DNA of 64,000 nt, taken from the NCBI RefSeq assembly GCF_001761465.1, contig NZ_CP017479.1, forward strand, positions 1,798,001-1,862,000, written 5' to 3'. The notes under the pieces were generated by a model. It was given only the letters and a program-made list of their open reading frames with translations, had not been told where the DNA came from and did no database searches. A program made the position numbers and the translations under genes. Of this stretch, positions 37,490-44,874 are shown in pieces. Each line of letters starts with the position of its first letter. The first letter of the stretch is position 1. The stretch is from Flavobacterium gilvum. Its GTDB lineage: Bacteria; Bacteroidota; Bacteroidia; Flavobacteriales; Flavobacteriaceae.

Positions 37490-37668
37490 CGCGAAATCGA
37501 TATAGTTATAGCTACAAAATTACAATATTAAGAGGCGAAAAGGAATTTTTTTAAGCCAAGAATTTCTGAAGTTGTGGTTCTTTAGAAAGAAGGTTAGAAT
37601 TTTGGAAAGAAAAATAATTTGATCTAAATGATTTTTAGCTTATTGAAATTTAATTAATAGCCAGCATT

Positions 37669-37740
37669 TTGTCATTCCGAGGTACGAGGAATCACACTAA
37701 TAGTAAACGTTATGTGATTCCTCGTACCTCGGAATGACAA
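37669..37740. repeat. REP-like hairpin, GTCATTCCGAGG type
   Basis: A 28-bp perfect stem from TTGTCATTCCGAGGTACGAG (arms 37669-37696 and 37713-37740) closes a 16-base loop. Similar hairpins occur at 47380-47451 and, degraded, at 56158-56226. Confidence 0.85.
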
Positions 37741-37766
37741 AGTAATTCTCTTTTTTTAAATAAAAA

Positions 37767-37798
37767 TACCGCAGTTTACAAATAAGTAACCTGCGGTA
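37767..37798 (-). terminator. Intrinsic terminator of the truncated hemoglobin gene
   Basis: TACCGCAG/CTGCGGTA stem, followed by T-rich sequence on the minus strand. Confidence 0.7.
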
Positions 37799-38288: not shown

Positions 38289-39533
38289 TTATCCTATTAA
38301 TTGGGTGAATAGGTCATGCTTTTCGTTTAGGTATCGGTATTCGAATCCTTTGCTATCCATATTGTTTTTGATGGCGTGAATGTCATTCGGATTCTTTAGT
38401 TCGATTCCAACAACTACAGATCCTACTTCGCGGCTATTTTTTTTGGCAAATTGAAAATAAGTAATGTCATCGTCGGGGCCTAAGATGTCGTTTACAAATT
38501 CCTTCAATGCACCGGGACGTTGAGGAAACTGTATCATAAAATAATGCATTAAGCCTTCATATAGCAATGAACGTTCTTTGATTTCGGCAGTTCTTTCGAT
38601 GTCGTTGTTGCTTCCACTTACAATACAAACAACCGTTTTTCCTTTTATTTGTTCTTTGTAAAAATCCAACGCCGCAATAGTCAAGGCTCCGGCAGGTTCG
38701 ACCACCATTGCTTCTTCATTGTACAAGCGCAAAATAGAGGTACATATTTTTCCTTCGGGAACCAGTATAATGTCATCTAAGTTTTTTTGGCAAATTTCAA
38801 ATGTCAGATCTCCTACTTGTTTGACTGCAGCCCCATCCACAAACTTATCGATAGTTTCTAATGCTGTGTTTTTATGATTGGTAATCGAAGTTTTCATCGA
38901 AGGTGCGCCAAGAGGTTCTACACCAATGATTTTGGTGGTAGGACTGAGTTCTTTGAATACAGTTGAAAGTCCAGAGGCCAGTCCGCCGCCACCGATGGGA
39001 ACAAAGACATAATCGATGGGTTGTTTGTAGGTATCCAAAATTTCTAAGCCAACCGTGCCTTGGCCTGCGATGACTTCTAAATCATCAAAAGGATGGATAA
39101 ATGTCTTGCTGTTTTCTGTGGCGTCTGCTACGGATTTTGCGTAAGCGTCATCAAAAGTATCGCCTGTCAAAACAATTTCGACATATTTTTTTCCAAACAA
39201 CTGTACTTGTTTTACTTTTTGCTTGGGTGTGGTTTTTGGCATATAAATTTTGCCTATTATTTTCAAAAGATGACAGGAAAAAGCAACACCTTGCGCATGA
39301 TTTCCTGCACTGGCACAGACAATTCCGTTTTCTTTTTCGGCGGCTGTCAAAGAACTGATTTTGTTATAGGCTCCTCTAATTTTGTAGGATCGAACGACTT
39401 GCAGGTCTTCACGTTTTAGTAAAACAGTTGCGCCAAATTCCTCTGATAAGTTTAGGTTCTCAATCAGTGGAGTAGTGGGGACAACATTTTGTAACTGTTT
39501 TTGTGCTTGTTGTATTGCTGTAAATAAAGTCAT
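38289..39533 (-). CDS. ilvA: Threonine dehydratase
   Basis: From ATG 39533 (MTLFTAIQQAQKQL) the protein has 414 residues. The PLP lysine is in VRSYKIRGAYNK, the phosphate loop is GGGGLASG, and one C-terminal ACT-like regulatory domain (about 330-410, FPQRPGALKEFVNDILG) is present. It deaminates threonine to 2-oxobutanoate, the first committed step to isoleucine. It starts 17 bases after the IlvN-like gene, behind two attenuators with isoleucine codons, which fits feedback control of exactly this step. Confidence 0.95.
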   Translation of the reverse strand: MTLFTAIQQAQKQLQNVVPTTPLIENLNLSEEFGATVLLKREDLQVVRSYKIRGAYNKISSLTAAEKENGIVCASAGNHAQGVAFSCHLLKIIGKIYMPKTTPKQKVKQVQLFGKKYVEIVLTGDTFDDAYAKSVADATENSKTFIHPFDDLEVIAGQGTVGLEILDTYKQPIDYVFVPIGGGGLASGLSTVFKELSPTTKIIGVEPLGAPSMKTSITNHKNTALETIDKFVDGAAVKQVGDLTFEICQKNLDDIILVPEGKICTSILRLYNEEAMVVEPAGALTIAALDFYKEQIKGKTVVCIVSGSNNDIERTAEIKERSLLYEGLMHYFMIQFPQRPGALKEFVNDILGPDDDITYFQFAKKNSREVGSVVVGIELKNPNDIHAIKNNMDSKGFEYRYLNEKHDLFTQLIG

Positions 39534-39550: not shown

Positions 39551-39991
39551 TTAAAAGGAATCTATTAGTTCTAATTCGTTTATTAGTGTGTCTAATTGTA
39601 AGATTGTTTCGTTGTGTGTTTTGCTGATGTAAACGCAATAATCATTTTCTTGAAAAATTGGAAAAGCATCGATAATTGATGTAATTTCTTTTTTTCTTTT
39701 ATCAGAATTAGAAAGTTTTAAAAGTAGAATTTGATGAGTTGAAAGTTCTGTTTTAGTCTGTAAATAACATTTAAAAACTTCGATGATTTTCTCCATTTGA
39801 TGCACTATGTTTTGAACTGTCGATTCTGTTTCAAGAATTGTAATCGTAAAACGATATAAATTTACTGTTTTACAAAAAATTACCGAGAAGCTGTTTATGT
39901 TTATTTTTCTTCGGGTCAAAATAAGAGCTGTTTTGCTGATTAATCCTTCCTCCTTTTCACTGAAAAGTGTTATTGTAAATTCTTGTTTCAT
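39551..39991 (-). CDS. ACT-domain protein, IlvN-like
   Basis: The 146-residue protein has an N-terminal ACT domain (FTITLFSEKEEGLISKTALILTRRKININSF, about 4-75) and a second C-terminal domain. The arrangement resembles the small subunit of acetolactate synthase, but it is diverged and no large subunit gene is near. It could be the regulatory subunit of an IlvB encoded elsewhere or a regulator of IlvA. It is the first structural gene after the tandem attenuators. Confidence 0.65.
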   Translation of the reverse strand: MKQEFTITLFSEKEEGLISKTALILTRRKININSFSVIFCKTVNLYRFTITILETESTVQNIVHQMEKIIEVFKCYLQTKTELSTHQILLLKLSNSDKRKKEITSIIDAFPIFQENDYCVYISKTHNETILQLDTLINELELIDSF

Positions 39992-40013: not shown

Positions 40014-40056
40014 TTTAAAAAAAAAGCCTTTCGCTATTTTGACAGAGAAAGGCTTT
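40014..40056 (-). terminator. Attenuator terminator 2 (proximal to ilvN-like gene)
   Basis: On the minus strand AAAGCCTTTC/GAAAGGCTTT forms a 10-bp stem with nine following T residues, 25 bases after the stop of leader 2 and 23 bases before the structural gene. Confidence 0.85.
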
Positions 40057-40080
40057 ATTGGCAAATAGAATCCTGACTCG

Positions 40081-40134
40081 TCATGTGATACGAATAATGA
40101 TAATTGCAATTATAATTGTTGCTGAATTTTGCAT
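40081..40134 (-). CDS. Isoleucine-rich leader peptide 2
   Basis: An 18-codon ORF encodes MQNSATIIIAIIIIRIT: eight isoleucines and two threonines in 17 residues. With the hairpin at 40014-40056 it makes a classical transcription-attenuation unit. Isoleucine shortage would stall the ribosome and prevent terminator formation. Confidence 0.8.
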   Translation of the reverse strand: MQNSATIIIAIIIIRIT

Positions 40135-40143
40135 ATTTGATTA

Positions 40144-40174
40144 AAATAAAAAAACCTCCCGATGTGGGAGGTTT
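40144..40174 (-). terminator. Attenuator terminator 1
   Basis: Stem AAACCTCCC/GGGAGGTTT with loop ACATC and a T-run on the minus strand, between the two leader ORFs. Confidence 0.85.
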
Positions 40175-40223
40175 CATAAATTGTATATTGATTACTTATT
40201 TACATAACACCTCGCCATAATTA

Positions 40224-40274
40224 TCAAATGATAATTATAATAATTACGATGATGATGTTGATTAAGTGTTTCAT
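40224..40274 (-). CDS. Isoleucine-rich leader peptide 1
   Basis: A 17-codon ORF encodes MKHLINIIIVIIIIII: ten isoleucines, one valine, one leucine. It follows a promoter-like -7 box by 18 bases and is followed by terminator 1. It is the first of two stacked leader/terminator units ahead of ilvN-like and ilvA. Confidence 0.8.
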   Translation of the reverse strand: MKHLINIIIVIIIIII

Positions 40275-40292
40275 TTTTTTCTGTTTAGACTG

Positions 40293-40300
40293 CAAAAATA
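40293..40300 (-). promoter_or_regulatory. ilv operon promoter, -7 element
   Basis: TATTTTTG on the minus strand fits TAnnTTTG and stands 18 bases before leader 1; the -33 region is weak. Confidence 0.45.
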
Positions 40301-40436: not shown

Positions 40437-41597
40437 TTAAAATGCTTTTTTATAAAGTTCCAATATGTCTTTTATTGTTACTTCGCGAGGATTTCCCGGT
40501 GTACAAACATCTTCAAAAGCTGATTTTGAAATTTTTTCAAGATCTTCTTCTTTAACGTTCAACAGGCGAAGTTTTTCAGGAATACCCACTTCCACGGCAA
40601 GGTCTTTCACCGCTTTCACCGCTTTCACTGCAGCCTCTTCAGCTGATAGATTTGTCACATCTACTCCCATTGCTTTTGCTATTTCGGCATATTTCCCAAT
40701 TGAAGATTCCGTGTTGAATTCCATTACGATTGGTAATAATAATGCATTGGCCACTCCGTGTGGAATATCGTAATAAGCACCAAGTGGGTGAGCCATACCG
40801 TGTACCAAACCTAATCCTACGTTGGAGAATCCCATTCCGGCTACGTATTGTGCAACAGCCATACCATCACGAGCTACAATATCTGAAGGATTTCTAACCG
40901 CCACTGGCAAATGTTTAGTGATCATCTCAATGGCTTTTAGTTCGAACATATCCGACATTTCCCAAGCTCCTTTTGTTATATATCCTTCGATAGCGTGCGT
41001 CAAGGCATCCATTCCGGTTGCGGCAGTTACGCTAGGAGGCAAAGTTAACATAAGTTCCGCATCTACAATGGAAAGAATTGGAATAGCATTTGGATCTACA
41101 CAAACCATCTTCTTTACATTTTCTTCGTCAGTGATTACGTAGTTGATGGTAACTTCGGCCGCAGTTCCGGCTGTTGTTGGCAGTGCAATGATTGGAACAC
41201 ATTTATTTTTTGTGTCAGCCACTCCTTCCAAAGAAACGACATCGGCAAATTCAGGGTTGTTGGAAATTATTCCAATAGCTTTTGCGGTGTCTATAGGTGA
41301 ACCTCCCCCAATTGCCACAATCGCATCTGCCCCAGAGGTGCTGAAATCCTGTACGCCAGCTTTCACTTGCGCCACGGTTGGGTTTTGTTTTACATTAGAA
41401 AAAAAACTGTATGCAATATTTTCTGCATCTAAAACGGCTGTTACTTTTTCTACTACGCCAAATTTTATCAAGTCTTTGTCGGTAACGATAAATACTTTCT
41501 TTAGGCCTCTTTTTTTAATTTCGTCTGCAAGAACAGATCTGCTTCCTGCCCCATAATAGGACATCTCGTTTAAAATAATTCGTTTAATGGTACTCAT
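40437..41597 (-). CDS. fucO: Iron-containing alcohol dehydrogenase, FucO-like lactaldehyde reductase
   Basis: The 386-residue protein has the NAD-binding motif GGGSPIDTAKA and metal ligands in DALTHAIEGY, GLVHGMAHPLGAYYDIPHG, as in FucO. It reduces lactaldehyde to 1,2-propanediol in E. coli; other aldehydes are possible. The aldolase upstream (41856-42797) is on the same strand, 258 bases away, and may supply lactaldehyde. Confidence 0.88.
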   Translation of the reverse strand: MSTIKRIILNEMSYYGAGSRSVLADEIKKRGLKKVFIVTDKDLIKFGVVEKVTAVLDAENIAYSFFSNVKQNPTVAQVKAGVQDFSTSGADAIVAIGGGSPIDTAKAIGIISNNPEFADVVSLEGVADTKNKCVPIIALPTTAGTAAEVTINYVITDEENVKKMVCVDPNAIPILSIVDAELMLTLPPSVTAATGMDALTHAIEGYITKGAWEMSDMFELKAIEMITKHLPVAVRNPSDIVARDGMAVAQYVAGMGFSNVGLGLVHGMAHPLGAYYDIPHGVANALLLPIVMEFNTESSIGKYAEIAKAMGVDVTNLSAEEAAVKAVKAVKDLAVEVGIPEKLRLLNVKEEDLEKISKSAFEDVCTPGNPREVTIKDILELYKKAF

Positions 41598-41855
41598 AAA
41601 TTTGGGTATATATTTGTTTTATTATTTGCTGTTAAGCTTTAATTTATAGGCGATTAGCGAATAAAATCTTTATAAACTATAGGCTATAAATTAAAACAGT
41701 AAATTATTTTCCAGACTATTTTAAAAAAAAATATACGAGAAAAACACCAACTGAATATCGAAAATTATCCAGTAGCTAATCCTTTTTTTAAGGATTTACT
41801 GTAAAAAAAGAAGAATCAACATAGTTTGTTGTAAAGAAGAGATTATCTGCTTTTT

Positions 41856-42797
41856 TTACCAGACAGCTTCTTCTTCATAGACAACTTCAACTCTGGCGTT
41901 TACTGTTGCTAGTGCTTTTTCTAATAGGATTTCAATTTTATCTTCTATCGCTTTTGCGTTTGGAATTTTTGTGAAGTCAATAGCTTTTCTGATTCCTCCC
42001 ATTTTGAAACCTCTTTTTCGCATTGCAATTTTAAAGCCTAGTGGGAATGGCAATTGAAACATAGTTTTGACTAATTCAACGATTGATTCTTGACAGATTT
42101 TTGCTTGTTCAAAATTTCCGGATTCATAATGTTTTTTGATAGCGACAATGATTTCAGGATAAATACTAGCGGTTCCCACCATACAGCCATCCATTCCGAA
42201 TTGAAGTGCATTCAAAAACATTTCTTCTCTTCCGATGAATAATTTGGTAGAGATTTTTTTGGACTTAACGGTATTTAACATTTGCATCATCGTAACTCCA
42301 TTTGCACCAGAGTCTTTTATAGCTATAACCTTAGGGTTTTCAAAAAGTTGTTGCATTACGGCATCACTTATTGGAGTAGCGAAAAGAGGAATGTTGTAAG
42401 CAACGATGTTAATTCCTGTTTGATTTATGACTTCCTCGAAGTGTTTTATTAAATCATTGTCAGATGTAGAATAAAAGTATGGAGGAGCAATAATGACAGA
42501 TTTTATTCCTAATTTTTGATATTCTTTTATAAGCTGGATAGAATCATAGGAACAAGAAGTTGTTGCTCCTGGTAAAACAGGAACTTTATCTTTTACTACC
42601 TCAAGAACCGCTTTAGTCACAGCAATACTATCTTCAATAGAAAAATGAATACCCTCACCTATCGAACTCACTGGAAATAAGCCATCAACTCCGGAATCAA
42701 GTAAAAATTGGGTTAATTTTTTTGTTTCTTCAATGTTTATGCTTCCGTCTGGGTGAAGAGGAGTAAGCATAGCTGGAATAACACCTTTGATATTCAT
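41856..42797 (-). CDS. Dihydrodipicolinate synthase family aldolase
   Basis: The 313-residue TIM-barrel enzyme has the Schiff-base lysine in VIAIKDSGA, the conserved tyrosine in VAYNIP, and the phosphate/carboxylate loop PVSSIGEGIHFS where DapA has GTTGE. These changes point away from DapA to a 2-keto-3-deoxy-acid or similar pyruvate aldolase. If the substrate is a 6-deoxy-sugar acid the product would be lactaldehyde, matching fucO downstream; this is inference. Confidence 0.75.
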   Translation of the reverse strand: MNIKGVIPAMLTPLHPDGSINIEETKKLTQFLLDSGVDGLFPVSSIGEGIHFSIEDSIAVTKAVLEVVKDKVPVLPGATTSCSYDSIQLIKEYQKLGIKSVIIAPPYFYSTSDNDLIKHFEEVINQTGINIVAYNIPLFATPISDAVMQQLFENPKVIAIKDSGANGVTMMQMLNTVKSKKISTKLFIGREEMFLNALQFGMDGCMVGTASIYPEIIVAIKKHYESGNFEQAKICQESIVELVKTMFQLPFPLGFKIAMRKRGFKMGGIRKAIDFTKIPNAKAIEDKIEILLEKALATVNARVEVVYEEEAVW

Positions 42798-42850
42798 AGT
42801 TTTTTATTTTAATGTTATTTATTTTGGTGGATTCAAGTAATAAAATAGAT

Positions 42851-43061
42851 AGAACTTGTTCCTTGTTATTATTAGAGGAGATCTCTAGTAATTTGGACCG
42901 TAAATTATTTTTTTCTTTTTTTCCTTTGACTTCAGGTTTTGTAGGAGGGAATTGTGCTAAATTTGGGTGACAAAATCATTAACGATTGCGTCTTTTTCGG
43001 CCATATCTTTAGAAAGTGTTCCTTACCCTTGCCAAATCAGTTCTTTCTTTTTGGTATCCAT
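42851..43061 (-). pseudogene. Duplicated 3' fragment of the DUF4136 gene
   Basis: This stretch repeats 44258-44481, the 3' third of the intact DUF4136 gene plus its downstream flank, with scattered substitutions and a small deletion. It has no start and its frame is disturbed. Together the two copies bracket the decayed transposase. Confidence 0.8.
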
Positions 43062-43228
43062 AATAATTTATTTAAAATTTTATTATTTTTTTCCAACGCA
43101 AAAGAGACATGGTTGTCCTGTACCTGTCTACATATAAGCTGTTTACATCTTTTTTTTATATAGTAAAATTCAATAAATAAAACAGAGAAAAACATGATCT
43201 ATATCAGTTTTTTTAGTGCTTAACCACC

Positions 43229-43272
43229 TACAACGTTTGAGATTTTCAACATTAAGAATTTCAAACGTTGTA
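43229..43272. repeat. Hairpin upstream of the transposase remnant
   Basis: TACAACGTTTGA (43229-43240) is inverted at 43261-43272. It lies about 60 bases ahead of the transposase remnant and could be part of an IS end, but no matching end is found downstream. Confidence 0.5.
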
Positions 43273-43334
43273 ATTAAAAAAAATTAACAATTTTATTTAA
43301 AAAAAAGACATGTCTAAAATCTGTAATTTTAGAT

Positions 43335-44200
43335 ATGGAATCATTCAAAGGAGGGAGTATTATAGATTTTTTTGACACGTTCAAAACAGATTTAGTTTGT
43401 TTAGAATATTCGGCTTCGATATAATGGAAAGGAAATTTTAAATACTCAAAATGTAATCACACGAAGTTTACAATTCGTAAGTTGAATTTTGCCAGAGATT
43501 GCAATTTGTGCCATCATGTTGAAAGTCCTAACTGCCTATAGAATTTTTCATAAAGTTAAGTTTGGCACACGAAAAGCTTTCGGTATTGTTTTCGAAATGG
43601 GTGCTACCACCAAAAGTTTATCTTCCTCACAAATGGCAAAACGCTATTCTATTAAGTTGGCCAACCGCTTGGTTATTCATGTATAAAGTTCGTTTGGCTA
43701 TGAAAAGCAGTGAGTTAAATCCAATTGTCGGTACGGTTTATGTAGATGAATTTGTATATGGAGGTAAGGAGGATTTGAAACAAGGTAGATGCAATAATAG
43801 CAAGAAAAAGAAAATTGTTGTAGCTGTTGAAATTGATGATAAAGGCAGTGTGAAAAGAGCCTATTTTAAGAGAATTGACGATTATTCTTCGGATGAATTA
43901 GGTTAAATTTTTCACAGTCATATATCAACAGCAGCAAAAGTTAAAACAGGTAAGTGGACTGGCTATAAACCTCTAAGAAATGAATATAATATTAAACAAA
44001 TTAAAAGTAATAAATCAGATTTTTTCGAGATTAATACCATTATTCATCAATTGAAATCATGGTTAAGAAGTGTTTATTCTTGGATACACGAGCAAAAATA
44101 TTGAGAGGTATTTGGATGAATACAGTTATCAATTAAACAGGTCAATTCACAAATAAACTATGTTTGACAATCTAATTGTAAGAATGATGAATCGAAAGTG
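43335..44200 (+). pseudogene. Decayed IS1595 (ISXO2-like) transposase
   Basis: Joining frames across several stops and shifts recovers a full-length ISXO2-like transposase: MESFKGGSIIDFFDTFKTD at the start, a degraded Zn-ribbon zone, FHKVKFGTRKAFGIVFEM, the catalytic segment VGTVYVDEFVYGGKED, KKKKIVVAVEIDDKGSVKR, then WTGYKPL and the HQLKSWLRSVYSWIHE tail. Stops near 43421, 43684 and 43904 and frame changes make it inactive. It lies between duplicated DUF4136 fragments. Terminal repeats are not clear. Confidence 0.85.
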
Positions 44201-44257: not shown

Positions 44258-44481
44258 GAACTTGTTCCTTGTTATTATTAGAGGAGATTTTTAGTAATTA
44301 AGATCGTAAATTATTTTTTCTTTTCTTTTTTCTCTTTCACTTCAGGTTTTGCTGGAGGGAATTGTGCCAAAATTTGAGTGACAAAATCATTAACGATTGC
44401 GTCTTTTTCGTTCATGTCTTTAGAAAGAGTTCCAGATCCTTCACCTTGCCAAATCAGTTCTTTCTTTTTGGCATCGATAAG
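44258..44481. repeat. Intact copy of the duplicated DUF4136 segment
   Basis: This covers the 3' part of the functional DUF4136 gene and its downstream flank, sharing most bases with 42851-43061. The shared start is AGAACTTGTTCCTTGTTATT. Confidence 0.8.
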
Positions 44482-44874
44482 GTCTATGTACAATGTTCCT
44501 TCAGTTGACGATGAAACGTAAGTATGTCCTCCATACATATAAGGATTCCATCCCCATCCCCATCCGTAGCCATAAGCGGCACTGAATTGGTTCACACTGA
44601 TTTCTTCTTTTGATTTAGTGAAAATATTTACCAATAAATCAGGATTATCACTTTTGGTCAATCCTTTGGACTGTAATTGTCTGTCGATAGCATTCAGGAT
44701 TCTTTTTTTGTCCAAATCGGAAATTTCGACTTTGTCAATTCCAGATTTCATAAACGCAAACGTTTTATATTGAGCAAAATCTACCGATTTGTCATAATCA
44801 GAATATACTTTTACAGTGTCACAAGAAACAACCATGAAAAGTAATAGCAAAGGCAAGAGTTTGAATGTTTTCAT
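44311..44874 (-). CDS. DUF4136 lipoprotein
   Basis: The 187-residue protein has a lipoprotein signal with lipobox VVSC (cysteine at 18), a DUF4136 domain (DYDKSVDFAQYKTFAFM; LDKKRILNAIDRQLQSKGL; GTLYIDLIDAKKKELIWQGEGSG), a GYGWGWGWNPY segment and a lysine/glutamate-rich tail. It is an envelope protein of unknown role. Its 3' end is duplicated at 42851-43061. Confidence 0.9.
   Translation of the reverse strand: MKTFKLLPLLLLFMVVSCDTVKVYSDYDKSVDFAQYKTFAFMKSGIDKVEISDLDKKRILNAIDRQLQSKGLTKSDNPDLLVNIFTKSKEEISVNQFSAAYGYGWGWGWNPYMYGGHTYVSSSTEGTLYIDLIDAKKKELIWQGEGSGTLSKDMNEKDAIVNDFVTQILAQFPPAKPEVKEKKEKKK

Follow-up and report, generated by a model that had tools for sequence, protein, structure and literature searches.

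Ribosome-mediated attenuation is a textbook mechanism. In systems of the E. coli trp, his and ilvGMEDA type, a leader rich in codons for the cognate amino acid is combined with the alternative hairpins 1:2, 2:3 and 3:4 and an intrinsic terminator, and the biosynthetic genes lie downstream.

The closest precedent found for two attenuators in one leader is that of Salmonella mgtCBR, which senses two different signals. Passages of PMC3641672 describe two short frames in this leader, each part of an attenuator; the signals are ATP and proline, their effects are additive and the stem-loops are unlike intrinsic terminators. The tandem riboswitches of B. clausii metE, also described in passages of PMC3641672, sense S-adenosylmethionine and B12 directly through the RNA. 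For Flavobacterium psychrophilum, passages of PMC9723704 report ‘strong clues’ for leader-peptide attenuation upstream of amino-acid biosynthesis operons; this is the genus studied here, and those passages name no ilv gene, tandem units or orphan ilvN. Searches within an open-licence part of the literature turned up no report of tandem Ile attenuators in flavobacteria, nor of ilv genes preceded by a series of two peptide attenuators with a shared signal.

The DNA analysed here (the window) is a 64-kb stretch of the genome of Flavobacterium gilvum, a single complete contig of 4.40 Mb. On its minus strand the order leader 1, terminator T1, leader 2, terminator T2, orphan ilvN-like gene, ilvA is found. 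As in the E. coli type, there are short Ile-rich leaders, three alternative hairpins, intrinsic terminators and biosynthetic genes, whereas here two complete same-signal units stand in series, the regulated genes are an orphan ilvN-like gene and ilvA, and the phylum is one where attenuation has only been suggested so far. The two leader frames in series in one predicted transcript, judged by the layout and a single promoter-like box, resemble mgtCBR, but by codon content both leaders are Ile-rich and each has a terminator of the intrinsic type. With metE, as partly described in that source, the locus shares two sites expected to act as serial intrinsic terminators in one leader; it differs in having leader peptides, of which the metE riboswitches have none. 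The new feature is that two predicted attenuators for one and the same signal follow each other, and that their order is conserved. It is highly probable that both units are ribosome-mediated attenuators reading isoleucyl-tRNA, placed serially after one predicted promoter-like box.

Leader 1, MKHLINIIIVIIIIII and a stop codon, occupies 40274-40224 (minus strand; ATG at 40274, stop codon ending at 40224) and leader 2, MQNSATIIIAIIIIRIT and a stop codon, occupies 40134-40081 (minus; ATG at 40134, stop codon ending at 40081). Both leader frames are as a prior sequence-only reading of this DNA had written them. That reading had also placed an intrinsic terminator after each leader, and this was borne out. 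T1, the 3:4 hairpin of unit 1, lies at 40175-40148 (minus; stem 40175-40151, then a T run) and was recovered by a consensus terminator scan, by a purpose-made leader and terminator detector and by folding. T2, the 3:4 hairpin of unit 2, lies at 40055-40017 (minus; stem 40055-40024, then a T run); it was missing from the list given by the consensus scan and was picked up by the detector and by folding. A predicted intrinsic terminator is found between each leader frame and the first gene. The gene pair which the units precede in series ends in threonine dehydratase, as had been stated: the ilvN-like gene (39551-39991, minus, 146 aa), related to the acetolactate synthase small subunit, is followed by ilvA (38289-39533, minus, 414 aa), which scored above cut-off with TIGR02079 and NF006390 for a query that lacked the first 7 residues. 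Between the leaders and a DUF4136 gene (44311-44874), the stretch 40437-43906 holds frames resembling a lactaldehyde reductase, DapA and a partial IS1595 transposase; in many relatives the leaders directly follow a DUF4136-type gene.

The leaders were compared across 56 loci, which gave 40 distinct leader pairs, 38 from orphan loci and 2 from ilvB-ilvN-ilvA loci. An Ile-rich frame with 6-10 Ile codons was present in both leaders of all 40 pairs, so that the codon runs, whose conservation the sequence-only reading had left to be checked, are kept in relatives. In-frame Ile made up 46% of the codons of leader 1 and 42% of those of leader 2, against 1-6% in the other two frames. A short frame with a run of cognate (Ile) codons is thus present with ilvA downstream. 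At codon columns with an Ile majority, nonsynonymous single differences outnumbered synonymous ones in unit 1 (721 vs 519), and in unit 2 they were the fewer (488 vs 971). Leader 1 of the window stops one codon early, reading ATT TGA in place of the ATT CGA TAA of most relatives.

Leader 2 frequently ends in Arg-Phe-Thr or Arg-Leu-Leu past the Ile run, and the first leaders of related ilvE operons are richer in Val. Both features would suit gates that read different signals, for example mainly Ile at one and Ile plus translation rate or another amino acid at the other, combined as in Salmonella mgtCBR. Ile is by far the most frequent regulatory residue in both leaders, however, with means of only 0.4 and 0.6 Val and 0.8 and 1.2 Leu in leaders 1 and 2, and a pair of gates with unlike signals is accordingly quite improbable.

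Could the two units have arisen by chance? The detector required an ATG frame of 9-40 codons in which at least 5 of 8 neighbouring residues were Ile, Leu or Val, with an intrinsic terminator ending 10-170 nt past the stop. It found two units in all 22 upstream regions previously picked as tandem and none in 1100 dinucleotide shuffles of those regions. Unlabelled genes at these loci supplied 285 upstream regions, of which 15 had units; all 15 of the genes concerned directly precede ilvD, and the one that was checked (L115) is the branched-chain transaminase gene ilvE. Compared with dinucleotide shuffles, the stretches of unit 1 (z -4.5; 0 of 200 shuffles as stable) and unit 2 (z -3.2; 1 of 200) both folded better. 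A chance origin was rejected on the detector shuffles, the frame-specific Ile content and the presence of two units at every one of the 34 orphan loci described below.

Each unit can be divided into the four segments of a classical attenuator: segment 1 would be the Ile codon run, segment 2 would take in the region of the stop codon and the sequence beyond it, and segments 3 and 4 would be the 5′ and 3′ arms of the terminator. The last Ile codons would pair with the post-stop sequence (1:2), which could alternatively pair with segment 3 (2:3). In unit 1 the 1:2 hairpin lies at 40217-40238 (minus) and joins the last Ile codons to the post-stop stretch. The 2:3 antiterminator (40168-40213, minus), derived from the sequence and from folding with a stalled ribosome, pairs GAGGT (40213-40209) with ACCTC (40172-40168) and further TAAAT (40202-40198) with ATTTA (40181-40177). 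In unit 2 the 1:2 hairpin (40076-40095, minus) pairs ATTCGT with ACGAGT, and the antiterminator (40045-40079, minus), a near-invariant pairing obtained by folding, joins GAG (40079-40077) to CTC (40047-40045) and AGG (40074-40072) to CCT (40052-40050).

Comparison of relatives supported several of these helices. The 1:2 hairpin of unit 1 was paired in 91.7% of cells and 5 of its 8 pairs were changed on both sides (39 distinct rows); 24 cells were changed on both sides against 10.5 in shuffles, with 0 of 500 shuffles as high, a count uncorrected for relatedness. In the corresponding hairpin of unit 2 (93.3% of cells paired) a single G-C pair was replaced by A-U in 4 of 40 sequences, and in T2 (99.2%) a single A-U pair was replaced by G-C in 16 of 40. 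Taken together, this hairpin and its terminator had 20 cells changed on both sides against 6.5 in shuffles (0 of 500 as high, again uncorrected for relatedness), but the number of pairs so changed (2) was not above shuffles (160 of 500). The unit 2 antiterminator (99.2% of cells paired) was nearly invariant and showed no covariation, and the register of the unit 1 antiterminator shifts between clades. Pairing across the two units had a mean of 8.9% and a maximum of 23.5% of expected pairs.

Switching was simulated in the 40 pairs by folding the transcript through segment 4 with its 5′ side masked by a ribosome. The mean antiterminator probability for units 1 and 2 was 0.82 and 0.71 with the ribosome on the Ile codons, 0.19 and 0.08 with it on the stop codon and 0.56 and 0.40 with no ribosome. 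In unit 1 the difference depended on the assumed footprint: the Ile-codon value exceeded the stop value in 21 of 40 sequences at 9 nt, 38 of 40 at 12 nt and 40 of 40 at 15 nt, and in unit 2 it did so in all 40 at each of the three. An antiterminator that is favoured by stalling and excludes the terminator is thus found in silico, in unit 1 depending on the footprint. Shuffling of the spacer lowered the antiterminator score from 0.83 to 0.46 in unit 1 and from 0.73 to 0.50 in unit 2, but the real value stood clear of the shuffles, with at most 1 of 25 reaching it, in just 26 of the 40 unit 1 sequences and 19 of the 40 unit 2 sequences; for unit 2 of the window, at the last Ile codon, 16 of 25 shuffles reached it.

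Unit 1 of the window showed no switch at the 9 nt footprint (0.99 on Ile, 1.00 on the stop codon), and with the ribosome at the early stop codon it kept an antiterminator probability of 0.67 (12 nt) or 0.43 (15 nt). Because leader 1 ends early and the antiterminator is kept at its stop codon, a leakier gate 1 is predicted for the window than for most relatives.

The folding provides the antiterminator alternatives which the sequence-only reading had suggested looking for, as the pairings in each unit are mutually exclusive in silico. With the conserved Ile frames, these pairings support its interpretation as isoleucine attenuation, and both units very probably work as ribosome-mediated attenuators of the classical kind. 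When isoleucine is plentiful, a ribosome would reach the stop codon and cover segment 2, and the 3:4 terminator would form. When isoleucyl-tRNA is scarce, stalling of the ribosome at an Ile codon would allow 2:3 to form, and the polymerase would read through. We infer that the leaders are translated and that read-through responds to isoleucine.

Riboswitch, T-box and protein-binding leader systems also use terminator/antiterminator pairs, and within clades the spacer of unit 1 varies little, as might be expected if the conserved structures belonged to such a system and the Ile frames were incidental. At the Rfam gathering cut-off, however, the whole window yielded two tRNAs only and no riboswitch, T-box or leader family. 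Below the cut-off, the best match at the leaders was itself to a peptide leader, Phe_leader (36.1 bits, cut-off 55); matches to the His (26.9 of 49 bits), Trp (23.4 of 41) and Thr (22.2 of 55) leaders were at chance level. As Ile codons are also enriched in one frame only, an origin of these structures in a system of that kind is barely credible, and ribosome-mediated attenuation is retained as the reading of both units.

The serial arrangement was then considered. All 40 distinct pairs have a box of the form TAnnTTTG, which passages of PMC9723704 give as the flavobacterial -7 consensus, ahead of leader 1, and no pair has one in the stretch from T1 to leader 2. By chance it occurs in 4.5% of base-shuffled 90-nt upstream stretches. 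In the window this promoter-like -7 box, TATTTTTG, lies at 40293-40300 (minus), 26 nt before the ATG of leader 1, and marks a predicted start only. The stretch from T1 to leader 2 measured 9-17 nt in all cases but one: in L055 it reached 100 nt, an insertion of ~85 bases separating two intact units. If the box is a promoter, serial gating would follow from this single-box layout: to reach the orphan ilvN-like gene and ilvA, RNA polymerase would need to get through two gates in turn, each opened by isoleucine starvation. The two gates would be expected to multiply, and two units may in this way sharpen or broaden the response, as the sequence-only reading had proposed. As an illustration only, a change from 80% to 20% termination at each gate would turn a 4-fold response into a 16-fold one, and a leak of 20% into one of 4%.

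The terminators of the two units are of different types, CCTCC in unit 1 and then CCTTTCTC in unit 2, and their order was constant in 40 pairs. A recent duplication of the units is for these reasons not favoured. Near-identical adjacent units do exist in some ilvE operons (L121, L125).

The distribution of the double unit was examined by scanning named genomes with an alignment of 15 orphan proteins. Among the best 80 of 185 relatives, 34 were orphan ilvN-like loci (protein of at most 181 aa) and all 34 carried exactly two units. The other 46 had proteins of at least 194 aa and no unit in the stretch searched, an absence which says little, as many of these stretches fell short of the operon start. 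In a separate sample of the genus, which overlaps in species with the 34 orphan loci, ilvA was detected (E 1e-60) in 80 of 199 genomes and the loci were set in one orientation. Stand-alone ilvA, at 51 loci, had one unit in 40 cases and two in none; no unit was detected in the remaining 11, some of which begin at a contig end. Two of these 11, L073 and L086, have an Ile-rich leader with which the detector paired no terminator.

Tandem units were found before ilvN-like plus ilvA pairs in the clade of the window, before ilvB-ilvN-ilvA (L058, L172) and before solitary ilvN-like genes elsewhere. Flavobacterium johnsoniae strain CI04 (L228) is among the carriers of the orphan locus. The sequence-only reading had assigned the tandem to ilvN-like/ilvA. 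Its location stands, but across loci the double unit goes with the orphan ilvN-like gene, whether or not ilvA is present, and not with ilvA itself. An assignment of the tandem to ilvA was abandoned, as ilvN-like genes without ilvA have the pair and stand-alone ilvA has one unit or none. The second gate appears to be dispensable for ilvA, because in L088, whose ilvA is 93% identical, unit 1 stands alone and the ilvN-like gene is absent.

These counts bear on the possibility that one unit regulates and the other is a leftover of operon rearrangement, no longer of consequence; in the window the weaker unit would be unit 1 with its early stop codon. Stand-alone ilvA manages with one unit in 40 of 51 loci, unit 2 is missing from L088, through loss or from the outset, and unit 1 of the window switches poorly in the simulation, all as a single working unit would predict. 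A leftover would hardly be expected to persist at every one of the 34 orphan loci found within the best 80 of 185 relatives, with Ile frames and covariation in both units, or to remain intact beside its partner after the insertion in L055. That one unit is idle is therefore unlikely, and two working gates remain the preferred reading.

A covariance model of unit 2 was searched, blind to genome, against 101 genomes of the genus at E 0.001 and gave 27 places in 23 genomes. Of these, 25 lay before ilvN-like, ilvB, ilvE or ilvA genes: 15 before orphan ilvN-like genes, 2 before ilvB-ilvN-ilvA, 1 before ilvA and 7 before ilvE; of these last, L287 lies at a contig end and was assigned from its place next to ilvE in L120. 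Two units were also found before the further orphan genes which this search revealed. The matches in G199 and G201 had no unit on the match strand. In the window's own genome the best match of each covariance model was its own unit, and weak unit 2 matches at 2448000 (E 0.0039) and 1697863 (E 0.27) had no unit detectable nearby. The unit 1 model also matched the leader of the main ilvD-ilvB-ilvN-ilvC operon, MKHITNVLLVLSVIVVITYEKGLV (E 5.6e-5). This leader (L051:7306-7380; own genome C1:2745305-2745434) has a terminator of the unit 1 type ahead of ilvD-ilvB-ilvN-ilvC, and is of mixed Val/Leu/Ile composition in contrast to the Ile-only tandem pair.

In a sample of the family, at E 1e-4, the unit 2 model was found in 7 of 149 genomes and the unit 1 model in 15 of 149, own genome counted. 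Without the own genome, 21 loci remained, representing 18 distinct places; at least one unit was present at all 18, and two or three at 7. Among 25 ilvE- or ilvD-led operons of the genus loci, 10 had one unit, 8 had two, 2 had three and 5 had none, the last including L111, with only 33 nt searchable, and L130, with two units before an ilvE-like gene. Serial attenuators seem, from these sequences, to be common in flavobacterial ilv operons.

The product of the orphan gene is clearly homologous to acetolactate synthase small subunits (profile E 2.4e-29 to a solved plant subunit), yet it falls below the curated cut-offs: 25.3 of 27 bits for PF22629, 50.0 of 56.9 for TIGR00119 and 56.1 of 119 for NF008864. 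No ilvB lies beside it in the 64-kb window; the ilvB of its own genome adjoins another ilvN, in an ilvD-ilvB-ilvN-ilvC operon ~0.9 Mb away. In a tree of 81 proteins, for which the bootstrap was not settled and several long branches were flagged, 39 orphans form one side of a branch (100/99) and adjoin 195-aa Flavobacterium subunits, and the other subunit of the own genome groups with other genera. Over 28 pairs of orphan genes the median dN/dS was 0.27; for ilvA, compared in five of these loci, it was 0.03. The orphan gene is under purifying selection, but is less constrained than ilvA. One plausible history is that an ancestral attenuated ilv operon broke up and that the orphan retained its double leader.

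Valine controls acetolactate synthase through its small subunit. The orphan subunit may steer the enzyme towards isoleucine and would then have a role in relieving valine inhibition. In a fuller and tentative version, which we regard as possible but doubtful, the ordered pair of same-signal gates (three in some ilvE operons) evolved in flavobacteria as a single module that makes a tight, steep isoleucine-starvation switch out of a graded attenuator. Its output, the orphan subunit, would replace the housekeeping subunit and lift valine inhibition when isoleucine alone runs out, and ilvA would give the isoleucine-specific substrate. The locus points to an isoleucine-only control branch in flavobacteria, with its orphan regulatory subunit under purifying selection. 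Close relatives with one or two units before ilvA offer a natural test of the value of the second gate, and the 0 to 3 units before the main ilv operon provide further natural variation.

Three leader and terminator units in series were seen upstream of ilvE in L119, L125 and L295; in L125 and L295 the last two of the three leaders are near copies. Genome G435 has two orphan ilvN-like copies, each with its own double leader (L166 and L167), and the same is seen in F. saccharophilum (L227 and L234). Beyond a globin-like gene in the window, at 37641-37768, lies an inverted repeat with 56-nt arms that are 77% complementary and 16 nt apart.
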